DNA of 38,472 bases from Rhodovibrionaceae bacterium (GTDB lineage: Bacteria; Pseudomonadota; Alphaproteobacteria; Kiloniellales; DSM-21159), in the NCBI GenBank assembly GCA_028282405.1, contig JANQIA010000494.1, forward strand, positions 1 through 38,472. The letters run 5' to 3'. The notes below the pieces were generated by a model. That model did no database searches. It worked only from the letters and a program-made list of their open reading frames with translations, and was not told the origin of the DNA. The position numbers were made by a program, and so were the translations under genes. Of this stretch, positions 4,141-24,502 are shown in pieces. Every line of letters starts with the position of its first letter. The first letter of the stretch is position 1.

Positions 4141-6186
4141 TCAGGCAAGCTCGTCGAGGCCGGGATACTCCAGCGCGATCTCTTGTCTCGGCCGCGCGCC
4201 GCTCTCCGGCAGCAGACGGGCGTAGGCGGCCCGGCTGCTGGGCGGGATGCGGCCGACGACGTCCTGCAGCGCGCCCAGGTCCGCGCCCTGCTGGGCCAGG
4301 TAGGCGAGATAGCAGTGGCGAAGCTGGGCCGAGTCCACTTTTGCGGCGTCCGGCAGCTCGGCGTCGTCGGCGGCGCGGGCGATCAGGCCGTCCAGCTCCG
4401 TCAGGCTGTAGCGCTCTTCGGTCTTGTGCCGCAGGATCGTTTGGCCGCTTCGGCTGGTGCGGAAGTCCGCACGGGCGATGCTGCGCTTCACGCTGGCCGG
4501 CAGCGCGATGGTGCGGTGACTGAGCCCGGAGATGTGCAGGGTGCCTTGCTGCAGGTCCAGGTCTTCCCCTTCGACGGCGAGCAGCTCGCTGCCGCTGACG
4601 CCGCTGAGCAGCAAGGCGATCAGCGCGCGCGTCTTGGGGGTGGCGGCCCGCAGCAGTCGGTGCACGGACTCGACCGGTAGCTCGGCGATCTCCGGCTCGG
4701 TTTCGGCTGCGGCTTCCTGGCGGGCCAGGCGGGGCCGGGTGGGCGTCTCCTCGACCAGCTCGGCCTCCTCGTGGAAGACTCCCGGGCTGGTCATGGTTCC
4801 GATGGTGATCGGTCCCAAGGCCTGGACGCCGGTCTGCGGCGGCGGCCGCGTGAAGAAGTCGAAGGCGAGCACGACGAAAAAGCCGAACAACGCGGAGCCG
4901 CCGACGGCGATGGCGGCGTCGCGCGTGTAGTTCGGCCAGCTCGGCTCGGTCGGCTCGTTGGCCCGCTCCAGGACCTCCACCTGCGTCACGGCACGGTCGC
5001 GGTCGACTTGGCGGCGCACTTGCTGCTCGGTGATGCCGCGGTAGGCGTTTTCCAGATCGCGAAGCTCTTCCGTCAGCGCCTCGTGCTCGGCGAAGAGCTC
5101 CGAGAATGCGGATATCTCCTGCTCGCTCTCCGAAAGCTGACGGGTCAGCTCTTCAGCGGTCTGCCGGGCGCTCGCGAGTTCCCGGCGGGCTTCTTCGATG
5201 GAGCGCTCGGCAGCGACACGGCGGCGCTCCGCAAGCTGAAGCTCATAGGTTTCGAGCTCCTGGAAGGCGAGCTGGATTTCGCGGTCGAGGGGGATGAAGG
5301 CATCGGTAAAACGCCGGCGAAAGTCATCAATCTGGCTGCGGCGTATCGCAACCTCGTCTTCCAGTTCGGATATCCGGATCCTGTCCTCTCGGCCTGCGAC
5401 GATCTCGCCGCGGGCGACCGCCAGGGTCACGGTCTCGAGGTTGGCCGAGGCCTTGACCACCTCTTCGCGCGCTTCGTCGAGCGACAGGCTGAGCCCACGC
5501 AGCCGGGAGACGGCGCGGTTCTCCTCGCGCTCCATCGAAACGATGTCGTTGGTATCGCGGAAGAGGGCGAGCTCATCGCGCTTGCGCTCCACCCGGTCCT
5601 GCAGCTCGGTTCCCTGCCGGGCCAGCTCCCTGTCGGTTTCGCTGTAGAGCGATTCCTGGAAGCTGGCTTGAACCTGGAGGTAGACGTCGATCCAGGTGTT
5701 GAGCAGCAGGGGCAACTCCGCCGGCTCGGCACCCCGGGCCCAGAGACGCACGATGTTGGTTTCCTCGAAGCGCTCGACCCAAAGCACTTCCTGCAGCTTC
5801 GGAGTGTCCCAGTCCTCACCCTCGACCACCGGAACCTCGCGGTTCAAACGGTTGCTCAGCAGGTCCATGAGAGAGTTGGTCATCAGGGCGTGGCGTTCCA
5901 TCCCGACGGCCTGCGGATTGCTCGGCAGGGCGGCGGCGAGGGCCGCGCGGTCTGCGGGCGGGGTGACCAGCAGGCTGGCCGTCGACTGATAGACGGCCGG
6001 GCGCTGGTAGACGTAAGCCAAGCTGGCTGCGGCGCTGGCAAAGAAGACGGCCAGGAAGATGGCAAAGCGCTTGCCGTTGCGGGTGGCGCCGTTCTGCTTC
6101 GGCGCCGCCAGCTGATCGGCGTAGCTCTGTCCCTGCTGGAGCCTCATCGTAACCGTCTCGTCCGGCACATCATCCCACCATGCCAC
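4141..6186 (-). CDS. Wzz/GumC-like chain-length protein fused to a degenerate tyrosine-recombinase-like domain
   Basis: This 681-residue protein has a short cytoplasmic start, a first membrane segment near residues 40-61, and a periplasmic Wzz-like region (Y-Q-S-T-A-S-L-L-V-T-P). Long coiled coils run from about 170 to 410, and a second membrane segment lies near 421-445. This is the architecture of polysaccharide co-polymerases that set O-antigen or exopolysaccharide length. Where Wzc-type proteins carry a tyrosine kinase, residues about 503-665 instead resemble the catalytic domain of tyrosine recombinases: L-L-L-S-G-V-S-G-S-E-L-L, an L-R-H segment near 620, and A-Y-A-R-L near 656. Box I Arg is Ser, the box II HxxR His is Ala, and the later His is Arg, so recombination activity is unlikely. 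The start is GTG 6186, with ATG 6147 possible. Confidence 0.75.
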   Translation of the reverse strand: MAWWDDVPDETVTMRLQQGQSYADQLAAPKQNGATRNGKRFAIFLAVFFASAAASLAYVYQRPAVYQSTASLLVTPPADRAALAAALPSNPQAVGMERHALMTNSLMDLLSNRLNREVPVVEGEDWDTPKLQEVLWVERFEETNIVRLWARGAEPAELPLLLNTWIDVYLQVQASFQESLYSETDRELARQGTELQDRVERKRDELALFRDTNDIVSMEREENRAVSRLRGLSLSLDEAREEVVKASANLETVTLAVARGEIVAGREDRIRISELEDEVAIRRSQIDDFRRRFTDAFIPLDREIQLAFQELETYELQLAERRRVAAERSIEEARRELASARQTAEELTRQLSESEQEISAFSELFAEHEALTEELRDLENAYRGITEQQVRRQVDRDRAVTQVEVLERANEPTEPSWPNYTRDAAIAVGGSALFGFFVVLAFDFFTRPPPQTGVQALGPITIGTMTSPGVFHEEAELVEETPTRPRLARQEAAAETEPEIAELPVESVHRLLRAATPKTRALIALLLSGVSGSELLAVEGEDLDLQQGTLHISGLSHRTIALPASVKRSIARADFRTSRSGQTILRHKTEERYSLTELDGLIARAADDAELPDAAKVDSAQLRHCYLAYLAQQGADLGALQDVVGRIPPSSRAAYARLLPESGARPRQEIALEYPGLDELA

Positions 6187-6395
6187 AAGTGCATGTTAAC
6201 ACAGATTAACCGGCATACAGAGGGGCATGACGACCGGCTTCGACACCCTATCCCGCAATTTGGGCAAAAGCGGGCACAACCTCCCGATTAAGCTTAACTT
6301 CCACGCATTCTCATACGAATCAAACAACTTTCCATCGCGCCCCCCTTTGTCGACAGCCTGTTGGAAGGGCGAGTTGGAAGCCGGATTTTTGGTCC
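6187..6395. other. intergenic junction of chromosome and integrated element
   Basis: This 209-base stretch between the wzz-like gene and the first element gene holds the left attachment-repeat copy at 6286-6300. It also has a TTAA-N6-TTAAC motif near 6195-6209, which resembles a CtrA half-site pair but with one base too few in the spacer. No convincing protein gene is present on either strand. Confidence 0.5.
6286..6300 (+). repeat. left attachment-site repeat (candidate attL core)
   Basis: The 15-base sequence GATTAAGCTTAACTT recurs exactly at 16723-16737, just beyond the integrase. It contains the palindrome TTAAGCTTAA, as is common at recombinase crossover sites. Confidence 0.7.
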
Positions 6396-6563
6396 ATGGC
6401 GAGCGACTTCGTTCTCGCTGAGGACTTGCGGCAACTCGCCTCCGACGTGTGGAGGATAGGCGATGGCGTCCGTCACGACCCCGAGGCGGTCTATCTGGCC
6501 AAGGACAGCATTGCAAAGCGACTCGAGGCCTTGGCTCGGCAGATTGAGCGGCGCCGGTCATGA
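6396..6563 (+). CDS. 55-residue hypothetical protein, first gene of the element
   Basis: An ATG at 6396 opens a 55-codon frame ending in TGA at 6561-6563. The stop overlaps the next gene's start as ATGA, the usual sign of translational coupling. The product is helical and charged (SDFVLAEDLRQLASDVWRIG, ending in IERRRS) with no recognised motif. Position and coupling suggest an accessory factor for the helicase that follows. It could be a small adaptor or replication-initiation helper, but no function can be assigned. Confidence 0.6.
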   Translation: MASDFVLAEDLRQLASDVWRIGDGVRHDPEAVYLAKDSIAKRLEALARQIERRRS

Positions 6564-7966
6564 CAGACGATCAGGGCCCGGCCGTTTCCGACGCAGTCGC
6601 CGCGGCTGCCGATACGATATTGAACGCACCGTTCGCCCCGCCCAGTCTGAGCGACATCGCCCTAGCTGGGCAATTTGAGACTGAGCGGCGCGAGGATGCC
6701 CGCTATGTGCCAAGCTGGGGCCAATGGCTGCGTTTCAACGGCACCCGTTGGTCTCGCGACGAGCTTCTTGAGACCGTGATGGACGTGCGGCGCCTTTGCA
6801 CCTTTAGGGCTTATGACGCGAAGTCGCGGCGCGACGCCTTGGCGGTCTCGAGCCGGAAGACTGTTAATGCGGTCGAGGGCCTGGCCAGGGCAGGGCTGTC
6901 CTCGAGGGCGGATGATTGGGACCGCGATCGTCATATCCTCAACACGCCAGATGGCGTCGTTGATCTTCGGACAGGCGAGACTCGGCCGAACCGATGGGAC
7001 GACTTCTGCACGAAACAGACGGCCGTGGCGCCGGCGGCGGAGGACACGAAGGCACCGCTTTGGGAGGCCTTCCTCGAACGCATCACCGGCGGGGACGGGG
7101 AGCTCATCGACTATCTCGGGCGCTCTGCCGGCTATTGCCTCACGGGCGATGTCAGCCTTCACGCGCTCTTCTTCGCCCATGGTGGGGGGGCCAACGGCAA
7201 GAGCGTCTTCATCGGCACGCTGGCGGGCATCATGGGCGACTATGCCACCACCACGCCGATAGAGACCTTGACGGCCAGTCATGGCGAACGCCATCCGACA
7301 GAGCTTGCGGACCTGGCTGGCGCGCGGCTTGTGGTGGCCAATGAGACGGAGCGCGGCCGCGCATGGGCGGAGAGCCGATTGAAAATGCTGACGGGCGGAG
7401 ACCCGATCAAGGCGCGCCTGATGCGCCAGGACTTCTTCCAATTCGAGCCGCAGTTCAAGCTCTGGATCTCGGGTAACCACAAGCCCAAGCTACGGGGCGT
7501 GGACGAGGCCATGCGCCGGCGCATCAACCTGATTCCCTTCGGTGTGACGATTCCGGAGGAGGAGCGCGACCCAGAGCTGCATGAGAAGCTCAGGGAGGAG
7601 TGGCCTGCCATCCTGCGTTGGGCGATTGACTGCGGCTTGGACTTCCATAGGCGCGGCCTCGATCGTCCGATAAGCGTGCGCACCGCGACCGACGACTACT
7701 TCCTCCAAGAGGACAGCCTGGGTCAGTGGCTCGAAGAGTGTTGTTACGTAGCGCCCGAGCGCTGGTCTACCTCCAAGCTCCTGTTCGCCTCATGGAAGCT
7801 GTTCTGCGAGCAACGGGGCGAGCGTCCTGGCTCTCAGAGGATGCTCAGCAACGAGTTGGAGAACAGGGGCTTTCGTCCTGAGAAGCGCAACAGGCAAGGC
7901 GGCCGTGGATGGGCAGGCCTCATGCTCACCGAGGAAGCCAACAAGGCGATCAGCCTCAACACCTAG
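6560..7966 (+). CDS. phage/plasmid replication helicase, D5/P4-type superfamily 3 ATPase
   Basis: This 468-residue protein matches the C-terminal half of P4 alpha-like replication proteins. A D5-N-like region leads into Walker A G-G-G-A-N-G-K-S near residues 208-215, then a Walker-B-like L-V-V-A-N-E. S-G-N-H-K-P and A-M-R-R-R-I-N-L-I-P-F follow, both typical of the family's sensor and arginine-finger region. It should be a hexameric helicase that opens the element's origin. No archaeo-eukaryotic primase or TOPRIM domain is evident at the N-terminus, so it is shorter than full P4-type primase-helicases and may rely on host primase. The likely origin lies immediately downstream. Confidence 0.85.
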   Translation: MTDDQGPAVSDAVAAAADTILNAPFAPPSLSDIALAGQFETERREDARYVPSWGQWLRFNGTRWSRDELLETVMDVRRLCTFRAYDAKSRRDALAVSSRKTVNAVEGLARAGLSSRADDWDRDRHILNTPDGVVDLRTGETRPNRWDDFCTKQTAVAPAAEDTKAPLWEAFLERITGGDGELIDYLGRSAGYCLTGDVSLHALFFAHGGGANGKSVFIGTLAGIMGDYATTTPIETLTASHGERHPTELADLAGARLVVANETERGRAWAESRLKMLTGGDPIKARLMRQDFFQFEPQFKLWISGNHKPKLRGVDEAMRRRINLIPFGVTIPEEERDPELHEKLREEWPAILRWAIDCGLDFHRRGLDRPISVRTATDDYFLQEDSLGQWLEECCYVAPERWSTSKLLFASWKLFCEQRGERPGSQRMLSNELENRGFRPEKRNRQGGRGWAGLMLTEEANKAISLNT

Positions 7967-8055
7967 TCCAGGCATCCAAACAGCTGTCGACCGCCCAGGC
8001 GCCCCCGCCGGCGGGCGGCTCCGCTTGCCTGCCAGCAGGGTCGGTCAGGTCACCC

Positions 8056-8087
8056 GGGGACGCATCGGGGACGCATCGGGGACGCAT
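8056..8087 (+). repeat. three direct iterons with 11-base period
   Basis: GGGGACGCAT occurs at 8056-8065, 8067-8076 and 8078-8087, each separated by a single C. The spacing is about one helical turn, so bound proteins would line up on one face of the DNA. Confidence 0.8.
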
Positions 8088-8108
8088 GCGATTTCGTTGC
8101 GTCCCCGA
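8076..8108. repeat. perfect 11-bp inverted repeat in the iteron field
   Basis: TCGGGGACGCA (8076-8086) is followed after 11 bases by its exact complement TGCGTCCCCGA (8098-8108). The third iteron thus forms a stem with the first inverted iteron, which could extrude as a cruciform or serve as a dimer binding site. Confidence 0.75.
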
Positions 8109-8142
8109 AACAGGCTAGGCATGCCAAGGCTTTCAGGGCCAT

Positions 8143-8257
8143 GGGGACGCAGGGGACGCAGAGATGGGGGGATTAGCGCTCCTCGCCCGCGCGTGTGTGC
8201 GCGCGCGCGTTAGACGCTCATATGGGAGATTGCGTCCCCTGCGTCCCCTGCGTCCCC
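8143..8257. repeat. opposed iteron clusters (two direct, three inverted)
   Basis: GGGGACGCA is repeated back to back at 8143-8151 and 8152-8160. TGCGTCCCC is repeated back to back three times at 8231-8257. The two clusters are complementary and enclose about 70 bases, including the alternating CG/TG tract at 8188-8210, which has Z-DNA-forming character. Confidence 0.8.
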
Positions 8258-8410
8258 GCCAGCGGGCAGGGGTGTAGCCGACTCCGGATGGGTGTACTGT
8301 CAATGGGCGCGGGTCCTTCCCCGAAGCCATCGCGCCGGGGGGAATTCGCGGCCCCGGTTTCTCCGGTCTGTGTAGTAAAAATCTGGAAAACTTAGTTGTT
8401 TTTCTTGGTG

Positions 8411-9034
8411 ATGGCGGAAGAAGTATTGATTTGTAATCTTTCAAATACAGCAAAGAGGCTCGGCTATTCAGTCAAAGGGCTGCGTCAACTGATCAATAAA
8501 AACCCGGATTTTCCCGTTATTCGTCGAGGGGACCTGAGCAAGCCCTGGAGAATCGACGTTGTCGCTGCCCGCGCTTGGCTGGAAGCGCGCGAAGAGCTGA
8601 GACGCAAGGATAGGGAGGAGCGCCAGCGCCGGATTGAAAAGGCGTGGGCGCAATTGCCGGCTCTCGGCCAGCGTACGAGAGGACGCCCGTACGACCCGAG
8701 GAAAGACCTCATCCGTCGCCTTGAGTGCCGGTCTCGATTGCGAGACCTGGAAATGAAAGAGGCTCGGCTCGTGGTCGCGTCGGACCTCAAGGCGGCCTTG
8801 GCAGAGGTCGGACGAATGCTGGACGCCGAGCTGTCCGCAACTGTCGACCAATTGATTGCTTCCCACGGGCTGACAGGTCCCGTCGCGGAGGACTGCTGGC
8901 TGAGGATCGCGGAGATCAGGGACGAGATGACCTTCCGGCTCAACAGGCTCGTCGAGGAGAAGATGAGCGGCCGGGGCGGCGGCACAAACGACGCACCACC
9001 TTCCTCAGCGCTACGAGAACCAAACCTCTTCTGA
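8411..9034 (+). CDS. terminase small subunit-like protein (Nu1 type)
   Basis: The 207-residue product has an N-terminal winged-helix-like region (N-T-A-K-R-L-G-Y-S-V-K-G-L-R-Q-L) followed by a wing-type segment ending W-R-I-D-V-V-A-A-R-A-W-L. A charged helical C-terminal half follows. This resembles Nu1-family small terminases, which recognise phage DNA for packaging and hand it to the large subunit. ATG 8411 is chosen over the TTG at 8396 because the recognisable domain starts there. The usual partner, the large terminase, is not found downstream, which is the oddest feature of this block. A generic excisionase or regulator is the main alternative. Confidence 0.6.
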   Translation: MAEEVLICNLSNTAKRLGYSVKGLRQLINKNPDFPVIRRGDLSKPWRIDVVAARAWLEAREELRRKDREERQRRIEKAWAQLPALGQRTRGRPYDPRKDLIRRLECRSRLRDLEMKEARLVVASDLKAALAEVGRMLDAELSATVDQLIASHGLTGPVAEDCWLRIAEIRDEMTFRLNRLVEEKMSGRGGGTNDAPPSSALREPNLF

Positions 9035-9052
9035 GTCGACCGGCAAAAGGTG

Positions 9053-9112
9053 TTGACAGGCTAAAAACGTGAGCGTATGCGTAATTGACGTAACGCTACG
9101 TAAGTGGATTAC
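9053..9112 (+). promoter_or_regulatory. candidate promoter and palindromic operator before the AT-rich gene
   Basis: TTGACA at 9053-9058 is followed by 17 bases and TATGCG. Just downstream lies ACGTA-ACGC-TACGT (9088-9101), a perfect inverted repeat, nested in a GTAAT (9081-9085) / ATTAC (9108-9112) pair. The gene at 9115 starts three bases later, so a bound repressor would block its expression. Confidence 0.4.
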
Positions 9113-9114
9113 CT

Positions 9115-9747
9115 GTGAAAGACCCTTTGCTTCCCGATGTAGAAGAATGCCTCGACCGGCTGTCCTGGTTGAATGCACAGCGTTTCACCACGGAAGAGGT
9201 TTGTGGGGCGCTCCAAATAGATAAGCGTTCAATCACCAACTACACCGGGAAAACCGACTTGTTCCTTTGCTCAGAAAGCAAGCAAGGGTCATCTCGTCTG
9301 TTTCCACTGATTGATATCTATAATATTGGCCTTCTTGTTGAGCTATCCCGTGAGAACGGGGCTCCTTATCTAGTTTCTAGTGGCATAAATCTTCTATTCT
9401 TCGCGAGAATGCCGCGAGAGAACATGAAAGAGGAAGATGAATTCAGATCTAGTATTTGTCCGAATATATGTCATGATATTTTTAAAGCACCAGAATATTA
9501 TACTCATCGAGATTTGAACGCGCCCATAATGGCAAGTTTTAATACTAACCTCTCTATTATCGAAAATGATTTAAATGAAATCTGGGATCTGTATACGAGA
9601 ACCGCATCTTTGATCGTGAATATTACTTTTTTATTCGCGAGAATTGATATCAAGCTCAAAGAAATCAGGACCTTCTCGCCTCCGCGCAGGCCGGTAGTCG
9701 GGGAGCGAGCTAAGGCACGACTCAGAAAGCAAGAGGACAACAAATGA
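9115..9747 (+). CDS. AT-rich orphan gene in the element (unknown function)
   Basis: The 210-residue protein is not recognised. Residues about 25-48 (FTTEEVCGALQIDKRSITNY) look like a MerR-type helix-turn-helix; the rest is mixed, with a hydrophobic helical stretch near 165-182 (TASLIVNITFLFARIDIKL) and a basic tail. Codon use is visibly AT-rich from about 9280 to 9660, unlike the GC-rich genes on both sides, which suggests separate acquisition. It has its own putative promoter and palindrome, starts with GTG, and its TGA overlaps the next ATG. It sits where large terminase and portal genes would be expected. A moron, defence or regulatory role is possible but unproven. Confidence 0.65.
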   Translation: MKDPLLPDVEECLDRLSWLNAQRFTTEEVCGALQIDKRSITNYTGKTDLFLCSESKQGSSRLFPLIDIYNIGLLVELSRENGAPYLVSSGINLLFFARMPRENMKEEDEFRSSICPNICHDIFKAPEYYTHRDLNAPIMASFNTNLSIIENDLNEIWDLYTRTASLIVNITFLFARIDIKLKEIRTFSPPRRPVVGERAKARLRKQEDNK

Positions 9748-10235
9748 GTGACCCTTCGTCCAAGCGGTCGGGTGTAACGCCGCCTTCCGAAACGACCATC
9801 GTGCCATCAAGTGCTGCCCGGACAGCCCGGGTGAAGGTCAGGCCCAAGGGTCAAGAAGATAGTCCGGCGCCGCGTTTAGAGCTCTCACTGACCCCTCCAC
9901 CTCCTTTCGCATGGTCGCCCGGCCCAGTCGATGAGGCCGACTCGAGCCGATCGGCGCAAGAGCGCATCCTTGCAATCGTCAATAGCGCGGAGGCCAAGTG
10001 CCGCCGGCGCCTGGCACACTTCATCGCGCTGCATACCGAGGTGCCGGCGGAGGTCGCCCGCGCCATCCTGGCGAACGCGCCGCAGCGCGACGACAGGACC
10101 TTCGCCGAGCGCATGAGAGAGGTTCCACAGCCCCGCGTTGGCCCGGGCTGGGACGGTCCTGGTGGCTCGGATGCCGAACGCCAGTCCATGTTCGATGCCC
10201 ACACCGAGGCTTTCATCAACGGATGGCGGCGGTGA
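9744..10235 (+). CDS. scaffold-like capsid assembly protein (putative)
   Basis: The 163-residue product has a disordered, Pro/Ser-rich N-terminal half. Its C-terminal part (A-Q-E-R-I-L-A-I-V through A-R-A-I-L-A-N-A-P) resembles the tails found at the C-terminus of many phage S49 prohead proteases, where the tail is thought to act as internal scaffold. Here it is a separate gene upstream of the protease rather than fused to its end. It is coupled at both sides: its ATG overlaps the previous stop, and its stop lies 13 bases inside the protease gene. The scaffold role is inferred from recall of the family and from gene order. Confidence 0.5.
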   Translation: MSDPSSKRSGVTPPSETTIVPSSAARTARVKVRPKGQEDSPAPRLELSLTPPPPFAWSPGPVDEADSSRSAQERILAIVNSAEAKCRRRLAHFIALHTEVPAEVARAILANAPQRDDRTFAERMREVPQPRVGPGWDGPGGSDAERQSMFDAHTEAFINGWRR

Positions 10236-11008
10236 TCGAACATCCCGGGTGCTTGGCAGATGGCGCGAGCATCGACCCGCAGCAGCTCCTCGAGGTGAAC
10301 GACCGACCGCTTGCGCTGCTGCCATCGGCGGCGCCGTCGCTGCTGGCCAAGCCGAGGGCGCAATTGCCGCCTGCTGTCTATGTGAGCGCTGACGGCGTGG
10401 CGCGTGTCTTCGTTCTGGGCGCGCTTTTGGCGGGCGACTACGCGCGGATTGGCCGGGAGTTCGCCGCGGCGCGCGACAGCGACCAGGTCCGGGAGATTCA
10501 TCTGATGATCGATTCACCGGGCGGGGCCTACATGGGCGCGCTGGAGCTCAGCGCGTTCATTGCGGAAGGCGCCGGTGCGAAGCCTGTGTTCGCCCTGATT
10601 GGTGGCATGGGTTGCTCTGCCGCCTACGCCATTGCCTCGGCGGCCGACAGAGTGCTGCTGACGCCATCGGCCTCGGTGGGCAGCATCGGCGTCATCATGG
10701 TGCATTTCGACTTCTCCGACATGTTGAGCGCCGCCGGCGTTGCTGTAACGCACGTCTTTTCCGGGAGTCATAAGGCTGACGGCTCTCCCTACATGCCGTT
10801 GGCCGACGATGTTCGAGAGCGTTGGCAGGGCGAGGTCGATGCAGCGCAAGAGCGATTTGCGTCCTTCGTCTCCCATCGCCGCAACCTGACCACGGACGCG
10901 GTGCTGGCTCAGGAAGCCGCCGTCTTCGAGGGCCCGACAGCAATCGCCGCCGGCCTGGCCGACGGGCTCTTCTCTCCCTTCAACTCCGAAAGGAACAATC
11001 ATGCATGA
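10223..11008 (+). CDS. S49 family prohead protease
   Basis: This 261-residue protein is a phage S49 (SppA/lambda C-type) serine peptidase that matures the capsid precursor. Visible elements are I-D-S-P-G-G-A near the oxyanion region, the nucleophile Ser in G-G-M-G-C-S-A-A-Y-A-I-A, V-G-S-I-G-V after it, and the general-base Lys in S-G-S-H-K-A-D-G. The family uses a Ser-Lys dyad. ATG 10223 overlaps the preceding gene by 13 bases; the open frame extends further upstream but only as the shadow of that gene. The C-terminal tail common in relatives is missing here. Confidence 0.85.
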   Translation: MAAVIEHPGCLADGASIDPQQLLEVNDRPLALLPSAAPSLLAKPRAQLPPAVYVSADGVARVFVLGALLAGDYARIGREFAAARDSDQVREIHLMIDSPGGAYMGALELSAFIAEGAGAKPVFALIGGMGCSAAYAIASAADRVLLTPSASVGSIGVIMVHFDFSDMLSAAGVAVTHVFSGSHKADGSPYMPLADDVRERWQGEVDAAQERFASFVSHRRNLTTDAVLAQEAAVFEGPTAIAAGLADGLFSPFNSERNNHA

Positions 11009-12185
11009 CATCCCTCAGCGTCGGGGCTCCTACGTCGTGACTGACCCCAGCGGCGTAAGGATGGTTCACACGCCCGGCTCCACTATGCCCGGCAATCTGG
11101 TCGGCGGCGGGGCTACGGGGCTTCCCGATCATCCGCCTGGGATCACCTCTTCGCCGAAGCCCAGCTCGAGAGACCGAATGGCAGGGCAGGACCCTGTTCT
11201 CATGGCCGCCGTCGACTTCCTGCAGCGCGCCGGACGGGAGGTTCCGCCGCTGATCGGGGGGCATGAGCTGGTGATGCTGGCGATGACCCACTCGGGCAGC
11301 GACTTCCCCAAGTGGCTGGTCGATGCGATGGGGCGCGCAACGCGCACGCGCTACGAGGCGGTGCCGCCGGTGCTTCGGTCCATCGGGCGATACATCTCGG
11401 CGCAGAACTTCAAGGAAGTTCATATGCCCTTGCTCGGGGAAGCGCCGCAGCTGAAACCTCTCCTCGAGACGGGTGAGATCAGCTACGCGACGACCGACGA
11501 AGAGACGGCAAAGCTGAAGCTTGGCACCTTCGCGACGATCGTCTCGTTCTCGAGGCAGATGATCGAAAACGACCCCGGTCAGGGCTTTCTCGGCATCGCG
11601 AACGGCTTCGGCACATCCCAGGCGAACCTCGAAGGGATGACCTTTCTCAATCTTCTGCGCAGCAACAGTGGCGCGGGCCCGACCATGGACGACGGCCATC
11701 CGCTCTTCGACGCGGCGAACCACAACAATCTGGGGTCCACCACCGGCGCCCAAGGGAACCTGACGTTGGAGAACCTCAAGGCCGCTCGGACCAAGATGCG
11801 GAAGCAGAAGGGTCTCGACGGCACATCACCGATCAACGTGACGGCGCATCACCTGATCGTACCTGCCGCGTTGGAAACGGATGCGGAGGCCCTATTGGCC
11901 GATCTCTATCCGCAGAAGGCGGAAGACGTGAACTCGGCTGCGAAGGGCTTGACCCTGCATGTCGAGCCGCGGCTCGACGCCTTCTCCGAGACCGACTGGT
12001 ATCTCGCCACGGGTCCGGAACGCGCCGACAGCATCCTCTATGCCGATCTGCGCGGCCAGGGTGTCGATATCGATATCGAGCCCTCGTTCGAGCGGGATGG
12101 CCTGGCCATCCGGGCGCTCTACGACTTCGGCGTCACCATCGCCGATTGGCGCGGGCTCTACCGCCACACCTATTCCGCCACCTGA
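11001..12185 (+). CDS. major capsid protein, Mu gpT-like
   Basis: The 394-residue protein resembles Mu-type major head subunits of the HK97 fold. The first 60 or so residues are Pro/Gly-rich and probably flexible. Typical segments are T-D-E-E-T-A-K-L-K-L-G-T-F-A, S-F-S-R-Q-M-I-E-N-D, the D-G-H-P-L-F-D loop, and the C-terminal R-A-L-Y-D-F-G-V. These proteins form the icosahedral shell after trimming by the prohead protease, whose gene overlaps this start by eight bases. A good AAAGGA site precedes the ATG. It is followed by a decoration-type gene, as in many head operons. Confidence 0.85.
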   Translation: MHDIPQRRGSYVVTDPSGVRMVHTPGSTMPGNLVGGGATGLPDHPPGITSSPKPSSRDRMAGQDPVLMAAVDFLQRAGREVPPLIGGHELVMLAMTHSGSDFPKWLVDAMGRATRTRYEAVPPVLRSIGRYISAQNFKEVHMPLLGEAPQLKPLLETGEISYATTDEETAKLKLGTFATIVSFSRQMIENDPGQGFLGIANGFGTSQANLEGMTFLNLLRSNSGAGPTMDDGHPLFDAANHNNLGSTTGAQGNLTLENLKAARTKMRKQKGLDGTSPINVTAHHLIVPAALETDAEALLADLYPQKAEDVNSAAKGLTLHVEPRLDAFSETDWYLATGPERADSILYADLRGQGVDIDIEPSFERDGLAIRALYDFGVTIADWRGLYRHTYSAT

Positions 12186-12205
12186 TCTCAGAGAGAGGGT
12201 TTCAC

Positions 12206-12511
12206 ATGAAGAACTTCGTGCGTCCGGGAAAAAGCGTTCCCGTCACCGCGCCGGCGCTTGGCGTCGCCTCCGGCCAGGCCTTCGCCATCGACACGCTCGT
12301 CGGCTTTGCCGGCTTCACCGCGGCTCAGGGCGAGCCGGTCGAGATGCACATCGAAGGCGTGTTCCGGGTGCCCGGCCTGGGCGCGACCGTCGGGGCGCCC
12401 GTCTATTTCGACGCCGCGGCGGGTGCATTCGCCCTCACCGATGTTGGCAACATCAAGTGCGGCGTCGCGGTTGCACCCAATGAGGTCCGCCTAACGCCGG
12501 GGCTCGGCTAG
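12206..12511 (+). CDS. DUF2190-type capsid decoration protein
   Basis: The 101-residue product is rich in short beta strands and Gly/Ala/Val. It contains A-F-A-I-D-T-L-V-G-F-A and G-A-P-V-Y-F-D-A-A-A-G, hallmarks of the DUF2190 family that usually follows the major capsid gene and is thought to decorate or cement the shell. A GAGAGAGGG ribosome-binding site precedes the ATG. The expected next genes (head completion, tail tube, tail assembly) are absent, and the tape measure follows after only 226 bases. Confidence 0.75.
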   Translation: MKNFVRPGKSVPVTAPALGVASGQAFAIDTLVGFAGFTAAQGEPVEMHIEGVFRVPGLGATVGAPVYFDAAAGAFALTDVGNIKCGVAVAPNEVRLTPGLG

Positions 12512-12737
12512 CGCCGATGCATCCCTGTTGCCGGCCGGTTCGTCTCGCTTGACGGTCGCGCAACGGAGCCCGCCGTGGGTGCAAACGCGGTGGGAGGCTC
12601 TCCGGGGCTTGGCGGGGCGCCAACGCCGCTGGGCCCCGGAGGCCAGCTCGAGGACAGCACCATGATTGTCAAACAACCGCCGCTCATCGCCGAGATTCGG
12701 CTGCAGGTCGTGCGGGAGCTCACGGAGTATCATCTCA
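12512..12737. other. non-coding gap where head-completion and tail genes are expected
   Basis: This 226-base stretch has a weak open frame from ATG 12662 that runs on into the tape measure in another frame. It has no recognisable domain and poor support. The gap is far too small for the tail tube, sheath or connector genes that normally lie here, which points to a deletion. Confidence 0.45.
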
Positions 12738-14213
12738 ATGATCAACGCCAAGATCGCCGCAAGCCTCGTCGCCGTCGACAAGATGACTCGCGTGGTGCGG
12801 CGGGCGAATCAGTCCCTGAACCCGCTCAAGATTCGTGCGGACGAGACGACACGGGCCTTCCGCCGGCTTTCACGTGAAACAGGGCTGTCGCAACTGGCGC
12901 GCACGCTAAGACGTGCGGCAGGGCCGATGAATCGGTTGGGCGCCGCGGCTCGGGGTGCGGCCGGTCCCCTTGGGCTCATCACCGGCGGCGGTGCCGTGGT
13001 CGGCCTGGGAGCGTTGACGATGGGGTATGCCCGGGCGGGCGACGAAGCCGCCAAGTTCGGTCGCATCGTGGGATTGTCGACGGAGTCGGTGCAGGCCTTC
13101 CGTTTCGCCGCTGGGCGCCAAGGGGCCACCACAGAGACGCTTAACATGGGGCTGCGCACGCTCTCACGGGTGATGGGTGAGCTGCGGGTTGGCACCGGAG
13201 AGTTGAACAGCTTCCTCGAGAGAACGTCTCCGAGCCTGCTGAACGCGCTCAAGAACGCCAACGGCACCGAGGAGGCGTTCCTGCAGCTGAGCCAGGCCGT
13301 CGCCGACACCGAGGATCCCTTCCTGCGCTCGAAGCTCGCTGCGGCAGCCTTCGGCGAGTCCGGACAGAACCTGCTCAACCTGCTCGAAGGTGGGCCAGCC
13401 GGCATCGCGGAGTTGCGGCGCGAGTTCGAGGCGCTTGGCGGCGCCATCGGTAACGAGGCTGCCAAGGATGCCGAGGCCTTCCAGGACAGCATGGCAAACC
13501 TCAACGTCGCCGTGGGCGGGCTGCGCAATGCAATCGGCAGTCAGCTCTTGCCCATCCTCACGCCAATGATCGCTGCCCTGACGGGCTGGATTGCTGCGAA
13601 CCGGGAACTCATAGCCCAGAAGGTCGGGGCTTTCATGACGAGCATGTCGGAGATCGTCCAGAAGATCGACTTCGAGACCATACAGATCGCCGCCGGGGCT
13701 TTCGCGGCCGTACTCTCCGGGCCGCTGATCTCCGGTGTGTTCGGCGTCATCGGGACCATAGGCAAGCTATCGGCCGTCTTGGTGACCAACCCCATCTTGC
13801 TGCTTGCGGCGGGTTTAGGGACCGCAGCGTTTCTGGTGATACGCAACTGGGACAAGGTGGGAGTTTTCTTCTCCGACCTGTGGGACTCGATCGGCGCCGG
13901 CATCGACTGGCTGCGCGGGGCACTGCGGGGTCTTCTCGACAGCGACGTTATGAAGAGCATGCGCGCGATGGCCGATACGGTTGGCGGCTTGGTCTCCCGC
14001 GCGGCCGATTTTCTCGGCTTCGGAGATGACCGAGAACCTGCCCTTGCCGGCATCAGGGGTGGTGGTGCGCCGCCGCTCGATTCCAGGTCCTCGGTGGAAG
14101 TCCGAATTCGCGGTGAGAACCTGCCTGAGGGGACTCAGCTGTCGGCGCGCAGCAATGGGCCTGTCGAGACAGACCTTCAAACCAATGATGCTCTTTCGTT
14201 GATGTACCCATGA
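12738..14213 (+). CDS. phage tail tape measure protein (short)
   Basis: This 491-residue protein has the layout of tape measure proteins. The N-terminus is helical and Arg/Lys-rich; a region like G-L-S-T-E-S-V-Q-A-F-R-F-A-A-G-R-Q-G follows, then G-E-S-G-Q-N-L-L-N-L-L-E. Hydrophobic Gly/Ala-rich segments near 320-390 complete the pattern. Tape measure length sets tail length, so this one would specify a short tail. However, no tail tube, sheath, baseplate or fibre gene is present, so its product may be useless or serve with a helper's tail. ATG 12738 is chosen, with GGAG about 10 bases upstream. Confidence 0.75.
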   Translation: MINAKIAASLVAVDKMTRVVRRANQSLNPLKIRADETTRAFRRLSRETGLSQLARTLRRAAGPMNRLGAAARGAAGPLGLITGGGAVVGLGALTMGYARAGDEAAKFGRIVGLSTESVQAFRFAAGRQGATTETLNMGLRTLSRVMGELRVGTGELNSFLERTSPSLLNALKNANGTEEAFLQLSQAVADTEDPFLRSKLAAAAFGESGQNLLNLLEGGPAGIAELRREFEALGGAIGNEAAKDAEAFQDSMANLNVAVGGLRNAIGSQLLPILTPMIAALTGWIAANRELIAQKVGAFMTSMSEIVQKIDFETIQIAAGAFAAVLSGPLISGVFGVIGTIGKLSAVLVTNPILLLAAGLGTAAFLVIRNWDKVGVFFSDLWDSIGAGIDWLRGALRGLLDSDVMKSMRAMADTVGGLVSRAADFLGFGDDREPALAGIRGGGAPPLDSRSSVEVRIRGENLPEGTQLSARSNGPVETDLQTNDALSLMYP

Positions 14214-14263
14214 CAACGAGCGGAGTTACCGTACCGGCCATATCAGACGCGCCACCGCTCGCG

Positions 14264-14611
14264 TCACGGGCTTGGCTGATCGTCCTCGTCGAGAAGGTCG
14301 AAATGACCAGGCGTGCACTCCAAGGCTCTGGCCAGCGTCTCAGTCTCTCGAGGACTTGCTCTGAGCCGACCGTTTTCGATTGCTTCAATCTTGGCCAAGT
14401 CGATGCCTGTGGTCGCTGCCAGGTCCCGTTGACTGACAACGCGATACTCTCGCCATGCGCGAATGGGGTGAAGACCTTCGATGACAGCGTCTGCCACAGC
14501 GCCCGGAATGAGGACTTCGCGACCTGCTGCGCGCTCGCGGTCCATCTCTTCGAGCAAGCGGCGATCATACTCTTGTTCGGCAAGGGGGTAGTCGTCGTCT
14601 TCCTCGCCCAT
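14264..14611 (-). CDS. XRE-family helix-turn-helix regulator
   Basis: The 115-residue protein has an acidic N-terminal half and a C-terminal lambda-repressor-like HTH: W-R-E-Y-R-V-V-S-Q-R-D-L-A, then I-E-A-I-E-N-G-R-L. The arrangement resembles HTH proteins of chromosomal toxin-antitoxin pairs, but no RelE-like toxin is next to it. It lies nine bases downstream of the ribbon-helix-helix gene on the same strand with an AGGAGA site, so the two are probably co-transcribed. Together they probably control the divergent genes that lead to the integrase. Confidence 0.75.
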   Translation of the reverse strand: MGEEDDDYPLAEQEYDRRLLEEMDRERAAGREVLIPGAVADAVIEGLHPIRAWREYRVVSQRDLAATTGIDLAKIEAIENGRLRASPRETETLARALECTPGHFDLLDEDDQPSP

Positions 14612-14620
14612 CTTGCTCTC

Positions 14621-14773
14621 CTAGCGCTTGCGCTTGGATACCGCCTCCACGTGTTCTTTGAGAACGCGCTCGATGTAGTTGGCCAGAGTGCGGTCGTCAG
14701 CGGTCGCGAGCTGCTGCAGAGCTTCTTTCAGCTCCGGTTCGATGCGGAAGGACAGGGCAGCAGTCTTAGCCAT
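14621..14773 (-). CDS. ribbon-helix-helix DNA-binding protein (Arc/CopG-like)
   Basis: This 50-residue protein begins MAKTAALSFRIEPELKEAL. That is a beta strand followed by the first helix of a ribbon-helix-helix fold; a second helix (L-A-N-Y-I-E-R-V-L-K-E-H-V) and a basic tail follow. Such dimers bind short palindromes in the major groove. ATG 14773 is used because the fold starts there, although the frame is open further upstream. Its promoter region faces a long inverted repeat at 14816-14855, which is a natural candidate for its operator. Confidence 0.75.
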   Translation of the reverse strand: MAKTAALSFRIEPELKEALQQLATADDRTLANYIERVLKEHVEAVSKRKR

Positions 14774-14815
14774 AGTGTGCAGTCCGAGCTTCGTTGTATG
14801 GTAATGTATGTTGAC

Positions 14816-14855
14816 GTGTGTTGAGAACGTAGGCAGTCTACCTACGTCAACACAC
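14816..14855. promoter_or_regulatory. long inverted repeat, candidate operator of the element's control switch
   Basis: GTGTGTTGA + GAA + CGTAGG (14816-14833) faces CCTACGTCAACACAC (14841-14855). The arms match over 15 positions, with a three-base bulge in the left arm and a 7-base centre. A further TTGACG overlaps the left edge (14811-14816). The repeat lies between the leftward RHH-XRE pair and the rightward gene at 14877, so one bound protein could control both directions. Confidence 0.6.
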
Positions 14856-14876
14856 ATCTGCAACGAGGATGAAACC

Positions 14877-15296
14877 ATGATGGATGTTATCAACTTGGAC
14901 GCCACCCGAAACACCAATGAAGGTCCCGACGCGTTGGCGCGGCCCTCCAAGCCGTCTGACGCCACGGGCCACCGATCTAGGCGAGAAGAGGCGGCGGAGG
15001 AGTGGCTTGCGCAGGTGGACCGCCTGAATCTCGAGCTGAGCGTAGCGGCTGAGAGCCTCGAGACGATTCAAATCGTCGGCGACGACTATCAGTGCGAATC
15101 TGACGATGCCTTCAAAAAGCTCGGGATTCCGGTTCGCTGTCGGCCGCATTACCCATCCGCCGCGATACTGCTGCTAGTGCGCGAGCTGAAACGCTTGGCC
15201 TACGAGTCGAGCGAACTGGTCAACGCGCTGGAGGAGTGCCCGGAGCACCTGATGGAGAGCATCAAAACGCCGCGCGGAACGTCGAAGGGACGGTAG
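14877..15296 (+). CDS. 139-residue hypothetical protein divergent from the regulators
   Basis: The protein starts MMDVINLDATRN and is mainly helical and acidic, with the segment E-E-W-L-A-Q-V-D-R-L-N-L-E-L and a later stretch S-A-A-I-L-L-L-V-R-E-L-K-R-L. It is not recognised. ATG 14877 has AGGA upstream; the next codon is also ATG. It is the first gene of the rightward AlpA-integrase operon and follows the inverted repeat directly, so it is probably repressed in the integrated state. Early-gene or accessory roles fit the position, but nothing in the sequence shows the function. Confidence 0.6.
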   Translation: MMDVINLDATRNTNEGPDALARPSKPSDATGHRSRREEAAEEWLAQVDRLNLELSVAAESLETIQIVGDDYQCESDDAFKKLGIPVRCRPHYPSAAILLLVRELKRLAYESSELVNALEECPEHLMESIKTPRGTSKGR

Positions 15297-15300
15297 CACG

Positions 15301-15570
15301 ATGGCCGCTGTCCGAAATAGGCCCGCACTGACGCCCCGGATGCTCTCTGGGCCAAAGGTGGCCGCCTATCTCGGGCGCTCGGCGACATGGTTCCTGCAGA
15401 ACCGAATTGGACTCGAGGCGGCCGGCTTTCCGGGGCCGGTCGCCCCGCTCGGTTTGTGGGACCGCCACGCCATCGACCGCTGGCTCGACGAGCGGAGTGG
15501 GCTGCTCGATCGGTCGGAGATTCCTGCAGACGCTTACGATGCCGATTGGTCGGAGGCCTCCCGTGAGTAA
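15301..15570 (+). CDS. AlpA/excisionase-like DNA-binding protein
   Basis: The 89-residue protein has the AlpA-like pattern. L-S-G-P-K-V-A-A-Y-L-G-R-S is the start of a winged helix, F-P-G-P-V-A-P-L-G is the wing approach, and W-D-R-H-A-I-D-R-W-L-D is the closing helix. Such proteins activate or direct excision by the integrase in P4-type elements. It starts four bases after the preceding gene and overlaps the integrase by eight bases, so the two are translationally coupled. Confidence 0.75.
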   Translation: MAAVRNRPALTPRMLSGPKVAAYLGRSATWFLQNRIGLEAAGFPGPVAPLGLWDRHAIDRWLDERSGLLDRSEIPADAYDADWSEASRE

Positions 15571-16666
15571 GATCGCCGTGCGCCACCTGATTGCCAAGCG
15601 GCAGAAGAACGGCGCCGTGCTCTACTACTGGCAGCCGTCGAAAGCCCTGCGCCTGGCCGGGTTCAAGCCGCAGCGCCTTGCTCGCGCGACGAACGACCCA
15701 CTCGATGCCGCGCGCGAGGCTGAGGCGATCAACCGCGACGTGGACCGCTGGCGCCGCGGCGAGACCGGCCCGCGCATCAAAAATGAGACGCTGCCCTGGC
15801 TGATCAGGCTCTACAAGAGCGACCCGCGCTACCAGGACCTCAGCGCCGCTTCGAAGCAGACCTACGGATGGGCGCTGCGCAAGATCGAGGATTGGTCCAG
15901 GCGCGCCAAGGACCCGCCTCTGGCGAGCCTCAGGCGCCGTTGGTGCCGGGAGTGGTATCGGGCGCTCCTCGAGCAAGGAGGGACCGCCAGGGCGGCCCTG
16001 GTGATGAACGTACTCTCGGTGTTGCTCGCCTTCGCCGTCGATGAGGAGGTCATCCCCGCGAACCCTGCAGCCAAACTCAAGATCACGGGTTCGAAGCCGC
16101 GGCGCGCGGTTTGGCGACCGGAGGATATCGAGAAGCTCTGCACGGCAGCCGCGAAGGCCGGGCGGCCTTCGATCGCGTTGGCCGTTCGCCTGGCCGCAAG
16201 CCTTGGGCAGCGGGAAGGGGACGTACTGCGCCTCGCTTGGAGCCAGTACCGCGACGGAGCTTTCCGCCTGCGACAGCAGAAGACGGGAGTCCTCATTGAA
16301 GTGCCGGCCAGCGAAGAGCTTCGGGAAGAGTTGGCGGGCGCGAAGCGCAAGGGGCCCGTCATCGTCGTCAACGAGAACACAGGCCGGCCCTGGAACACGC
16401 ACACCTTCGGGCAGCGCTTCGGCGAGATTCGCGACAAAGCCGGCCTGGGCCACTTGCAGTTCCGCGACCTGCGGCGGACGGCGGTCGTCTGGCTCGCCGA
16501 GGCGGGCTGTGAGGTGCCTGAGATCAGCGCCATCACCGGCCACAGCATCGACCGGACGGCAGCAATCATCGAGGTCTATCTGCCGCGAAATTCCACCATG
16601 GCGCGCAACGCCATCACCAAGCTCGAAGAGTACAAAAAGAGATCGAAGTTGGAAGCGGACGAGTGA
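15563..16666 (+). CDS. tyrosine site-specific integrase
   Basis: This 367-residue recombinase has an N-terminal arm-binding and core-binding region (to about residue 190) and the catalytic domain. The box I Arg is in S-L-G-Q-R-E-G-D, a Lys in Q-Q-K-T-G, and box II reads F-R-D-L-R-R. Then come G-H-S and the nucleophile in V-Y-L-P-R. The first His of HxxR is replaced by Arg, a variant I recall from other alphaproteobacterial phage integrases, so it is probably active. The GTG start overlaps the AlpA-like gene. The attR repeat lies 57 bases past the stop, in the usual position for an integrase. Confidence 0.9.
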   Translation: MSKIAVRHLIAKRQKNGAVLYYWQPSKALRLAGFKPQRLARATNDPLDAAREAEAINRDVDRWRRGETGPRIKNETLPWLIRLYKSDPRYQDLSAASKQTYGWALRKIEDWSRRAKDPPLASLRRRWCREWYRALLEQGGTARAALVMNVLSVLLAFAVDEEVIPANPAAKLKITGSKPRRAVWRPEDIEKLCTAAAKAGRPSIALAVRLAASLGQREGDVLRLAWSQYRDGAFRLRQQKTGVLIEVPASEELREELAGAKRKGPVIVVNENTGRPWNTHTFGQRFGEIRDKAGLGHLQFRDLRRTAVVWLAEAGCEVPEISAITGHSIDRTAAIIEVYLPRNSTMARNAITKLEEYKKRSKLEADE

Positions 16667-16722
16667 TTTTGCTTCGAAATGTTGGAAAGGTCATTGATTA
16701 TTAACGATAAATCGACCATGCG

Positions 16723-16737
16723 GATTAAGCTTAACTT
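16723..16737 (+). repeat. right attachment-site repeat (candidate attR core)
   Basis: This is an exact second copy of the 15-base GATTAAGCTTAACTT at 6286-6300. It lies between the integrase and motA, about 80 bases before the motA start, so it borders the motA control region. Confidence 0.7.
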
Positions 16738-18321: not shown

Positions 18322-19857
18322 TTATGCCAAGTCGTCGTTGCCGAGAATTGCCAGCTTTTCGATGACACCGTTGGCACCCGTCAGGACATCGTCGTTCCAG
18401 CCCGGCGCGGTGAGATTTGCCAGAGTTAGGTCCTCAGCTTGGACGTCTTCCAGAATGTACTTGTGACCCCCATTGCCGAGGACTTCGATGTGGAGGTCTC
18501 CATCGACTTCGGAGATACCGATCCCGGTCGCGGCCATCGCCCCGAAATCCAAGACATCCTCGCTTGGTGCAAAGTCCGAAATTGTCTCTTCGCGCCCCCA
18601 GTCCCAGGTGATCTTGACGACGTCCTGAACGCCGTCCGAGTCGTTGCCGCCACTGTCAGTGTCGCCACCGGTGTCACCTCCAGTGTCACCACCGGTATCT
18701 CCTCCAGTGTCACCGCCGGTATCGCCACCAGTGTCACCTCCAGTGTCACCACCGGTATCTCCTCCGGTGTCGCCACCACTATCCTGGCCGACGAGGGCGA
18801 GGATCTCCTGCGCCGCGCTGTCATCCCTGATGGTGAAGTTGGCGGCGGAGAGCTCGGATAGGGAAACGCCTTCCAACGTCGTCGTTTGATTGTTGGAGGG
18901 AATGGAGAACACGACGTTGCCGTTGCTCTCGGAGACGTCGATGTGATCGGCGTTGAACCAGTCGATGTAGATCGTGTCGGAGCTCGGGTCGAAGTTGGAG
19001 ACGACGTCGTTGGTTCCCCAGGCCCAGTCGATGGCGACGTCGGCCGAACCGGCATCCACCCCGGCGGTGCCGTTTCCGGCATCCGGGCCCGAGGGTGTGT
19101 CTCCGGGCGTGTCCCCGGGCGTGTCTCCGGGGGTCCCCAAGCCTTCGTCGCCCGTCAGGCGGTCCTGGAAGTAGGCGATCAGCGCGTAGACTTCCGGCGC
19201 GTCATGTCCGCCGAACTGATCGACGTACTGAAGAATGGAGGTTCCGAACTCGTCGTTGCTCGATGTGCCGTTGAGCAGCAGGTTGAGCGTCCCGAATGGA
19301 CCGCGCAGGTGCGCGGCGGCGAGAATGCCGGTCAAGGTCAGGGTCACGGCAACCTCAGAGCCGCCCGAGTTGTAGGTGACCGTCGTTCCAAGATAGTCAT
19401 CGAGGCTTCGTCCGGCGGCGCTCAGCCCATTTTCGATGATGCTGAGGTTGTGACCGAAGGCCTCTCGAATGGCGACATCCTGCGCCTCCTTGGTCATGAA
19501 TTCCTCGAGGGAGTTGACCCCGTTCTTGCCGGTCCAGGTGCCGTCCCAGGTGTTGGTGGCGGCGCCATTGCCGTAATACAAATCATCGTCGTAGTAGCCG
19601 AGGTCGATGAGTAACGCCTCGCCGAACTGATAGCCGACGAACCCTAGGGTGTTCATGGAGCGGTAGGCCATGGCCTCCCATTCCGCATCGCTCAGGTCGC
19701 CCCAGTTGCTGTAGTTCGGAAAGAAGTCGCCGACCGGGCCGCCGGCCCAAGTGTCGAGCTGCCAGTCCTGAATGATACCGGCGTTATAGCGCTCTCGGTC
19801 CCAGCCGGACTCGAACGCAAGCAACGCATCCAGAAACTCTTCAAACGTGCCATTCAT
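18322..19857 (-). CDS. type I secretion substrate with duplicated W-x-W-G domains and repeat linkers
   Basis: This acidic 511-residue protein has no signal peptide and diverges from a type I exporter, so it is probably its substrate. Residues 1 to about 235 form a globular domain (F-L-D-A-L-L-A-F-E-S-G-W-D, L-G-F-V-G-Y-Q-F-G-E) of a kind I associate with secreted calcium-binding or glycan-active proteins. A PGDT linker (about 242-257) precedes a first W-A-W-G domain (about 272-345). Ten GGDT repeats (about 359-399) then lead to a second, related W-D-W-G domain (about 412-480). Both domains share V-x-x-F-x-P-S-x-D and an L-E-x-V-x-x-x-x-L strand. The hydrophobic-acidic C-terminal tail fits a secretion signal. 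RTX nonapeptides are absent. Confidence 0.7.
   Translation of the reverse strand: MNGTFEEFLDALLAFESGWDRERYNAGIIQDWQLDTWAGGPVGDFFPNYSNWGDLSDAEWEAMAYRSMNTLGFVGYQFGEALLIDLGYYDDDLYYGNGAATNTWDGTWTGKNGVNSLEEFMTKEAQDVAIREAFGHNLSIIENGLSAAGRSLDDYLGTTVTYNSGGSEVAVTLTLTGILAAAHLRGPFGTLNLLLNGTSSNDEFGTSILQYVDQFGGHDAPEVYALIAYFQDRLTGDEGLGTPGDTPGDTPGDTPSGPDAGNGTAGVDAGSADVAIDWAWGTNDVVSNFDPSSDTIYIDWFNADHIDVSESNGNVVFSIPSNNQTTTLEGVSLSELSAANFTIRDDSAAQEILALVGQDSGGDTGGDTGGDTGGDTGGDTGGDTGGDTGGDTGGDTGGDTDSGGNDSDGVQDVVKITWDWGREETISDFAPSEDVLDFGAMAATGIGISEVDGDLHIEVLGNGGHKYILEDVQAEDLTLANLTAPGWNDDVLTGANGVIEKLAILGNDDLA
18658..18777 (-). repeat. 12-bp tandem repeat encoding about ten GGDT units
   Basis: Ten degenerate copies of a 12-base unit encode Gly-Gly-Asp-Thr. 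Variants alternate in blocks (for instance a unit with GTGTCACCACC followed by one with GTATCTCCTCC recurs), showing that longer segments were copied. The number of units could vary by slippage without a frameshift. Confidence 0.8.
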
Positions 19858-20109
19858 GAGGGTGGTTCCCTTCTTTTGATCATTCCCGTCGGGCGCGGCT
19901 TCTAGAATGTGTTTCGCGGTAGGTAAATAAAGAATTCGGCATGGTTTTAGTAATATGGCATAAATGCCCGACTTTTATCACAATCAAAATCGATCTTATA
20001 TGTTAAGTATAGTGCAGAATATAATAAATAACGGTGTGGGCTCTGTAATGTCTTGGATAATTTCATTTTATTGTTCGACAATACATTTTCGGTTCTGAGT
20101 GCCGGCCAC
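19858..20109. promoter_or_regulatory. AT-rich divergent regulatory region of the type I secretion locus
   Basis: This 252-base region separates the secretion substrate from its exporter genes and is markedly AT-rich (notably 19910-20040) against the GC-rich surroundings. It has TATAATAAATA around 20015-20026 but no clear -35 partner. It probably holds both divergent promoters and a regulator site; I cannot define them from sequence alone. Confidence 0.4.
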
Positions 20110-21870: not shown

Positions 21871-21875
21871 CGAAT

Positions 21876-23201: not shown

Positions 23202-23237
23202 CGCGGCAGATGGAAGCTCTGAACGATCGTTCCGGGG

Positions 23238-23672: not shown

Positions 23673-23815
23673 AGCGTCGCCTCTTGGGTTGTCTCTAGAT
23701 ACGACAAAACTGGCGACCGACCTCGGCAAGCCGACAGAATCGCAGCCAGCCTTCGCTGGATAATGGTCGAGTTTACCATAGGGGCCGAGTCCCTGTCATC
23801 CGCCGCCCGGCTGCG

Positions 23816-24403: not shown

Positions 24404-24502
24404 GGCTGTGAGCTTGCATCTGTCCGGCGACAGCGCAAGCCTCAACGACATCGTGGCAAGCAACCGATGTCTTCGTCTTCTCTGGCGTGAAGCGACGATG
24501 TG

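Follow-up and report, generated by a model that had tools for sequence, protein, structure and literature searches.

The question raised by this locus is why a membrane protein built like a polysaccharide co-polymerase (PCP) should end in a tyrosine-recombinase domain devoid of its active site, and what such a domain may do there. The gene lies in the window, the whole stretch of 38,472 nucleotides that was analysed, in which the minus-strand ORF 4141-6186 (681 aa) was confirmed to be present. Its closest homologue (89% identity), from a Rhodovibrionaceae MAG (L012, JANQMX010000088.1), has a stop codon just 5' of the point corresponding to two internal codons, a GTG at 6153 and an ATG at 6147; for this reason the gene probably starts at one of these two and not at 6186. 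Residues are numbered according to the 668-aa form of the fusion protein. The features of the gene are as follows.

4141..6153, minus strand: whole fusion gene (ORF; probable start GTG 6153 or ATG 6147, stop 4141-4143)
6004..6075, minus strand: TM1, residues ~25-48 (hydropathy peak; weak Wzz match over the region)
4924..6003, minus strand: periplasmic PCP part with long helices and coiled coil, residues ~49-408 (Wzc/PslE profile matches, TIGR03007/EpsF, helices in the full-length model)
4849..4923, minus strand: TM2, residues ~409-433 (hydropathy peak)
4684..4848, minus strand: cytoplasmic linker, residues ~434-488, weakly conserved and variable (alignment)
4144..4683, minus strand: pseudo-recombinase domain without core-binding domain, residues 489-668 (PF00589, XerA and XerC-like matches; AlphaFold model)
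4594..4596, minus strand: S518, site of the catalytic Arg I (Arg in 0/18 members versus 41/41 recombinases)
4327..4329, minus strand: A607, site of the HxxR His (His in 0/18 members versus 41/41 recombinases)
4222..4224, minus strand: Y642, site of the nucleophile Tyr (Tyr in 14/18 members)
4144..4182, minus strand: conserved C-terminal tail I-x-L-x-[YH]-P-x-L (aligns with the HPRA tail of Xer proteins)

A palindrome, GTTAACACAGATTAAC, was noticed close 5' of the gene (window 6195-6210) and at the same place in a related genome (L045); it is a possible operator.

An earlier note on this DNA had described the N-terminal part as a Wzz/GumC-like co-polymerase, and this description held. A long helical region lies between two hydrophobic stretches, and a 12-member profile of the fusion family matched the solved Wzc at E=2.7e-12 (PDB 7nhr being named as the Wzc-type reference) and PslE at E=1.2e-7. 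The PCP part also matched TIGR03007 and EpsF, with E values of 1e-8 to 1e-15. The AlphaFold model of the full-length protein was poor (pLDDT 50) and unusable beyond the helices seen in the periplasmic part. The fusion shares with Wzc-type PCP-2a proteins (PF02706/PF13807) the PCP-2 trait of two TM helices around a homologous helical periplasmic part, as well as a C-terminal cytoplasmic domain. It differs from them in that this domain is a dead tyrosine recombinase instead of a BY-kinase, the PCP-2a trait, and in forming its own clade on the PCP tree. The fusion as a PCP-2a kinase is excluded, since the chain carries no BY-kinase. The C-terminal part of PslE (PDB chains of 670 and 662 aa) gave no match to the domain profile, even at E 10.

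The second claim, a recombinase domain at the C-terminus, was also confirmed over the last 180 residues. Scanned alone, the domain matched Phage_integrase with 27.1-27.8 bits (cut-off 27.1) and the XerA model with E=5e-12. Among the members scanned, PF00589 was matched by 13 of 14 and XerA by all 14, and a 14-member domain profile searched against the PDB recovered XerC-like, XerA and IntI4 proteins at E 1.8e-13 to 2.4e-10. The domain was also modelled with AlphaFold, from an alignment of the two closest sequences only and thus free of recombinases, with modest confidence (pLDDT 60, pTM 0.55, one of five models clearly best); the fold assignment therefore rests mainly on the profile searches, with the model as support. 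The 50 Foldseek matches listed for this model were all tyrosine recombinases or their dead regulatory kin, MrpR/YopR and SroF among them. With VIA-align, the model fitted XerA with Z=15.6 and an rmsd of 2.8 over 161 residues, and the first unrelated-looking class, at Z 8, was topoisomerase IB, a known distant relative. Profile searches and model both placed tyrosine recombinases on top and revealed no other fold, and no match to a known Wzz-associated domain unrelated to recombinases was found. The C-terminal domain is a tyrosine-recombinase catalytic fold. It resembles XerA, XerC and XerD (PF00589) in the sequence and fold of their catalytic domain and in the C-terminal tail, but it lacks Arg I, the Lys, the HxxR His and the core-binding domain, the region before it consisting of TM2 and the variable linker; it is also acidic and joined to a membrane protein. 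The domain profile further matched chain 14 of PDB 9i5v (401 aa, E=5.7e-4 over 149 residues), which bears the name "RaiA"; name and match are inconsistent.

The letters of the active site were exactly as the earlier note had read them: in the window protein, Arg I is replaced by S518, the HxxR His by A607 and the later His by R633, with the LRH Arg (R610) and Y642 being kept. The closest homologue carries identical letters at these sites. A loss beyond those already noted is that of the hairpin Lys, which is a Ser. Throughout the 18 members, Arg I (replaced by Ser, Thr, Gly or Ala), the hairpin Lys and the HxxR His (replaced by Ala, Glu, Asp or Arg) are never found, and the third His (H/W site) is present in one; Arg II is kept in 15 and the Tyr in 14. 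As controls, 41 recombinases gathered by the same searches as the fusion family had Arg I, the HxxR His and Arg II in 41/41, the Tyr in 40/41 and a hairpin Lys or Arg in 39/41. The loss in the family is therefore not an effect of poor alignment. An active tyrosine recombinase is excluded, the defining set R-K-H-R-H/W-Y being incomplete. Retention of the C-terminal Tyr and of Arg II in most members could mean that they are still of use. One genus (G930, G851, G893; L081, L082, L084) has also lost Arg II (now His) and the Tyr (now Leu) and shows the most decayed site of the family.

The earlier note had further proposed that the domain might link surface polysaccharide synthesis to DNA, and here the data pointed the other way. 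In 17 of 18 members the domain has an acidic pI of 4.4-6.4 and a net charge of -13 to -2, the exception being G858 (net 0 to +1, pI 7.3-8.2 depending on the exact boundary), whereas each of the 41 recombinase domains is basic (net +2 to +16, pI 8.6-11.4); net-charge ranges compared between 14 family members and the recombinases did not overlap. A genuine integrase of the window's own genome (L002 of G000) is basic as well, with a pI of 10.5. Eight positions were compared at which recombinases usually carry Lys or Arg and which align in the family without wide variation. Six of them are lost (Arg 504, Arg I, both Lys of the GKG loop, the G587 site and the DLR Arg, here G625), whereas the family retains Arg 545 of the hairpin and, in most members, Arg II.

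The strongest precedent for DNA binding is MrpR/YopR, the SPbeta master repressor (PDB 8a0a), a tyrosine-recombinase fold that is not a recombinase and has, like the fusion domain, lost Arg I, the HxxR His and the third His/Trp with the Tyr kept, yet binds DNA (PMC10516654). By analogy, the domain would couple polysaccharide synthesis with the chromosome or with transcription; its structural matches to MrpR/YopR and SroF and the retention of Arg II and Tyr in most members are in line with this. However, MrpR is soluble and retains its core-binding domain and the Lys (PMC10516654), whereas the fusion domain is tethered to the membrane, has no core-binding domain and, in 17 of 18 members, is negatively charged where the 41 recombinases are positively charged, Arg I, both GKG-loop Lys and the DLR Arg being gone. 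We consider this reading improbable. The acidic character of the domain, set against the basic recombinases, argues against a link to DNA and for a protein-protein module, so that protein binding is probably the better reading of these sequences. What is plain is that the active site and the basic DNA-facing surface of the recombinase fold disappeared long ago and that the fold was retained as a non-catalytic module, in agreement with the proposal of the earlier note that the fold had been recruited for a non-enzymatic use: catalytic residues are lost and the fold is conserved in 18 genomes.

The family itself came to light only through profile searches of the class and phylum, as single-sequence searches of 58 relatives returned nothing but the 89% homologue. 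These profile searches recovered the fusion at full length from 18 alpha- and gammaproteobacterial genomes. Two of them, G001 and that of the window, belong to one genus; G363 represents a different family of the same class, and the remaining 15 come from other class(es) of the phylum. The fusion is rare in random draws (2/397 other genomes of the phylum, 1/384 of the class, 5/369 of the class of G533). Phage and plasmid records searched with the domain, and plasmids searched also with two members, gave no matches. The presence of both halves together in 18 genomes excludes chance. On a tree of the PCP region, the 17 fusions used formed one clade (100/100), the PCPs of the exosortase A (XrtA) system formed a separate clade (100/100), and the fusions also stood apart from the sampled kinase-bearing PCPs. 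A single origin of the fusion would be the simplest reading of this tree. No Pfam or NCBIfam model covers the fusion as a whole, and no report of such a fusion was found in the open literature, the scope of the search leaving aside subscription journals. The fusion is a PCP whose cytoplasmic domain is of a new type.

Could the domain be a functionless passenger, a decayed integrase read through by the PCP gene? Catalysis is gone in every member and the linker is variable, as would be expected of such a remnant. Against it, the frame is open in 18 genomes from two classes, with a single origin, positions of the fold are conserved, and dN/dS on the domain is low. For the closest pair, the window gene and its L012 homologue, dN/dS was 0.14 on the domain and 0.10 on the PCP part; in other pairs silent sites were saturated or values on the domain were 0.17-0.18. 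By this measure, purifying selection acts on the domain. The family domain also has newly conserved hydrophobic and polar positions (e.g. L513, L514, D595, Q620). A passenger is hardly credible. In G533, the fusion gene adjoins one of two similar transposase-like ORFs (L066, 1-852 and 14170-15069).

The gene content of the carriers points to the pathway that a retained module may serve. An OPX export gene was present in 16 of the 18 carriers and a BY-kinase-like gene in 17. In 15 carrier genomes the OPX gene, a TIGR03007-like PCP gene and a TIGR03018-like kinase gene are adjacent, with an exosortase A homologue within the same 20 kb in 12 of them. Models above cut-off were TIGR03027, 03007, 03018, 03016, 03015, 03006 and 03109 in G533, and the PCP, the kinase and PrsK in G001; the remaining genomes were assigned by similarity to G533. 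In the window's genome (G000, 536 contigs), fragments of the block lie at contig ends (L115, L116). G363 had no OPX match, and its fusion gene lies near genes scoring above cut-off for TIGR03098, 03099, 03100 and 03101, all of them families named for the exosortase A system. The 15 block genomes, G000 and G363 add up to 17 of 18 carriers with signs of the system; G893 (87% complete) is outside this count. In 2006, the PEP-CTERM mark was reported in 19 of 280 genomes (PMC1569441), a background against which 17/18 is unlikely to have arisen by chance, the counts being over fusion carriers only and related genomes not being independent. Thus read from these carriers, some of them kin, the fusion appears to track the exosortase A exopolysaccharide system.

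This association is one of genomes more than of loci. In nearly all genomes a long distance separates the fusion gene from the XrtA locus, and only in G363 is it part of an XrtA-associated cluster; in G851 its neighbours are genes for Wzy_C, a UDP-sugar dehydrogenase, an epimerase and DegT, and nothing in its gene neighbourhood is conserved across genera. When a sigma-54/PrsR promoter was looked for 5' of the fusion genes, none was found: the best -24/-12 scores were no better than those of other genes of the same loci, and TTTACA was found 5' of 2 of 17 fusion genes, not at the expected place.

The earlier note had placed the recombinase domain in lieu of the kinase of Wzc-type proteins. The domain indeed sits where Wzc carries its kinase; a direct replacement of the kinase is unsupported, because the fusions are not nested in the sampled kinase-bearing PCPs and because an XrtA-type PCP and a stand-alone tyrosine kinase are encoded separately in these genomes. 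This XrtA chain-length determinant (TIGR03007) has a PCP fold related to that of the fusion, but it stops ~60-80 residues past TM2 and its kinase (TIGR03018) is a separate protein, whereas the fusion forms a clade apart (100/100) and carries its own cytoplasmic domain.

We propose that the fusion is a kinase-less, PCP-2-like co-polymerase, most likely working alongside the XrtA/PEP-CTERM exopolysaccharide system. Its two membrane helices would anchor the coiled periplasmic part, which, given its fold relation to Wzc, may form a Wzc-like ring meeting the growing polymer. The cytoplasmic domain would most likely bind protein, be it adjacent subunits of the ring or some partner in the cytoplasm. 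Because a PCP and a kinase are present in the XrtA system itself, the fusion would come in addition, as an accessory or second co-polymerase that perhaps mixes with the resident one. In the prevailing view, PCP-2 co-polymerases are switched when their kinase domain is phosphorylated on tyrosine, and recent work has added pseudokinases to this picture. In the fusion, assembly of the co-polymerase may instead be controlled with no tyrosine phosphorylation involved, the model being the pseudokinases EcpK and HfsB of a phosphorylation-independent PCP-2 group (PMC12004946). In EcpK/EpsV and HfsB/HfsA a dead enzyme domain is likewise proposed to serve a PCP-2 without phosphorylation (PMC12004946), but theirs is a kinase fold on a separate protein and here it is a recombinase fold on the same chain. 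We regard an accessory, kinase-less PCP of the exopolysaccharide pathway, with the pseudo-recombinase domain as a scaffold, as about evenly balanced between right and wrong.

A bolder version, held more tentatively and still quite possible, would make the fusion an undescribed PCP class dedicated to exosortase A, in which ring assembly is switched or scaffolded on the cytoplasmic side by the pseudo-recombinase and not by tyrosine phosphorylation. If so, a third, unrelated fold, retained across two bacterial classes, would occupy the place of the kinase, showing that a docking or ring-building module matters there and not kinase chemistry, and a recombinase fold would, as rarely happens, have given up DNA entirely. 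The exosortase A exopolysaccharide system, in which control of the polymer has received little study, would gain a new candidate component.

How the domain might hold its partners can be approached from the behaviour of its relatives. In Xer and Cre assemblies the C-terminal tail is exchanged between copies. The fusion keeps such a tail with a conserved Pro, aligned with the Xer HPRA tail, and could therefore hold the co-polymerase ring by itself, the tail of each copy docking into the next. PCP proteins act as octamers (PMC12004946), which suits a ring closed in this way; recombinase assemblies on DNA are nevertheless fourfold where PCP rings are eightfold, and we judge self-docking unlikely, if worth keeping in mind. 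Very improbable, in our opinion, is docking to the Xer/FtsK-type division machinery, by which export would be placed or timed at the septum; it is suggested by the binding of the XerD catalytic domain to the FtsK gamma domain in PDB 5dcf, a match of the fusion domain.

Besides the pseudo-recombinase domain, the window carries a second recombinase, which looks intact, and further genes that were recorded in passing.

15407-16666, plus strand: tyrosine integrase, intact-looking (in mobile element)
6560-7966, plus strand: D5_N primase (in mobile element)
11001-12185, plus strand: phage capsid protein (in mobile element)
20053-23201, plus strand: ABC exporter and HlyD partner (in window 18322-25570)
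24500-25570, plus strand: glycosyltransferase (in window 18322-25570)

The stretch 18322-25570 also contains a 511-aa ORF assigned to no family, and most of it is absent at the corresponding place in L045. The mobile element, which has in addition a weak tape-measure match, is 10.4 kb long (window 6286-16737) and lies between the fusion gene and motA; a live-looking integrase next to a dead recombinase domain is thus the outcome of a chance insertion. The element is flanked by a 15-bp direct repeat, GATTAAGCTTAACTT, at 6286 and 16723, and L045 shows a single copy of this repeat, corresponding to the empty site.
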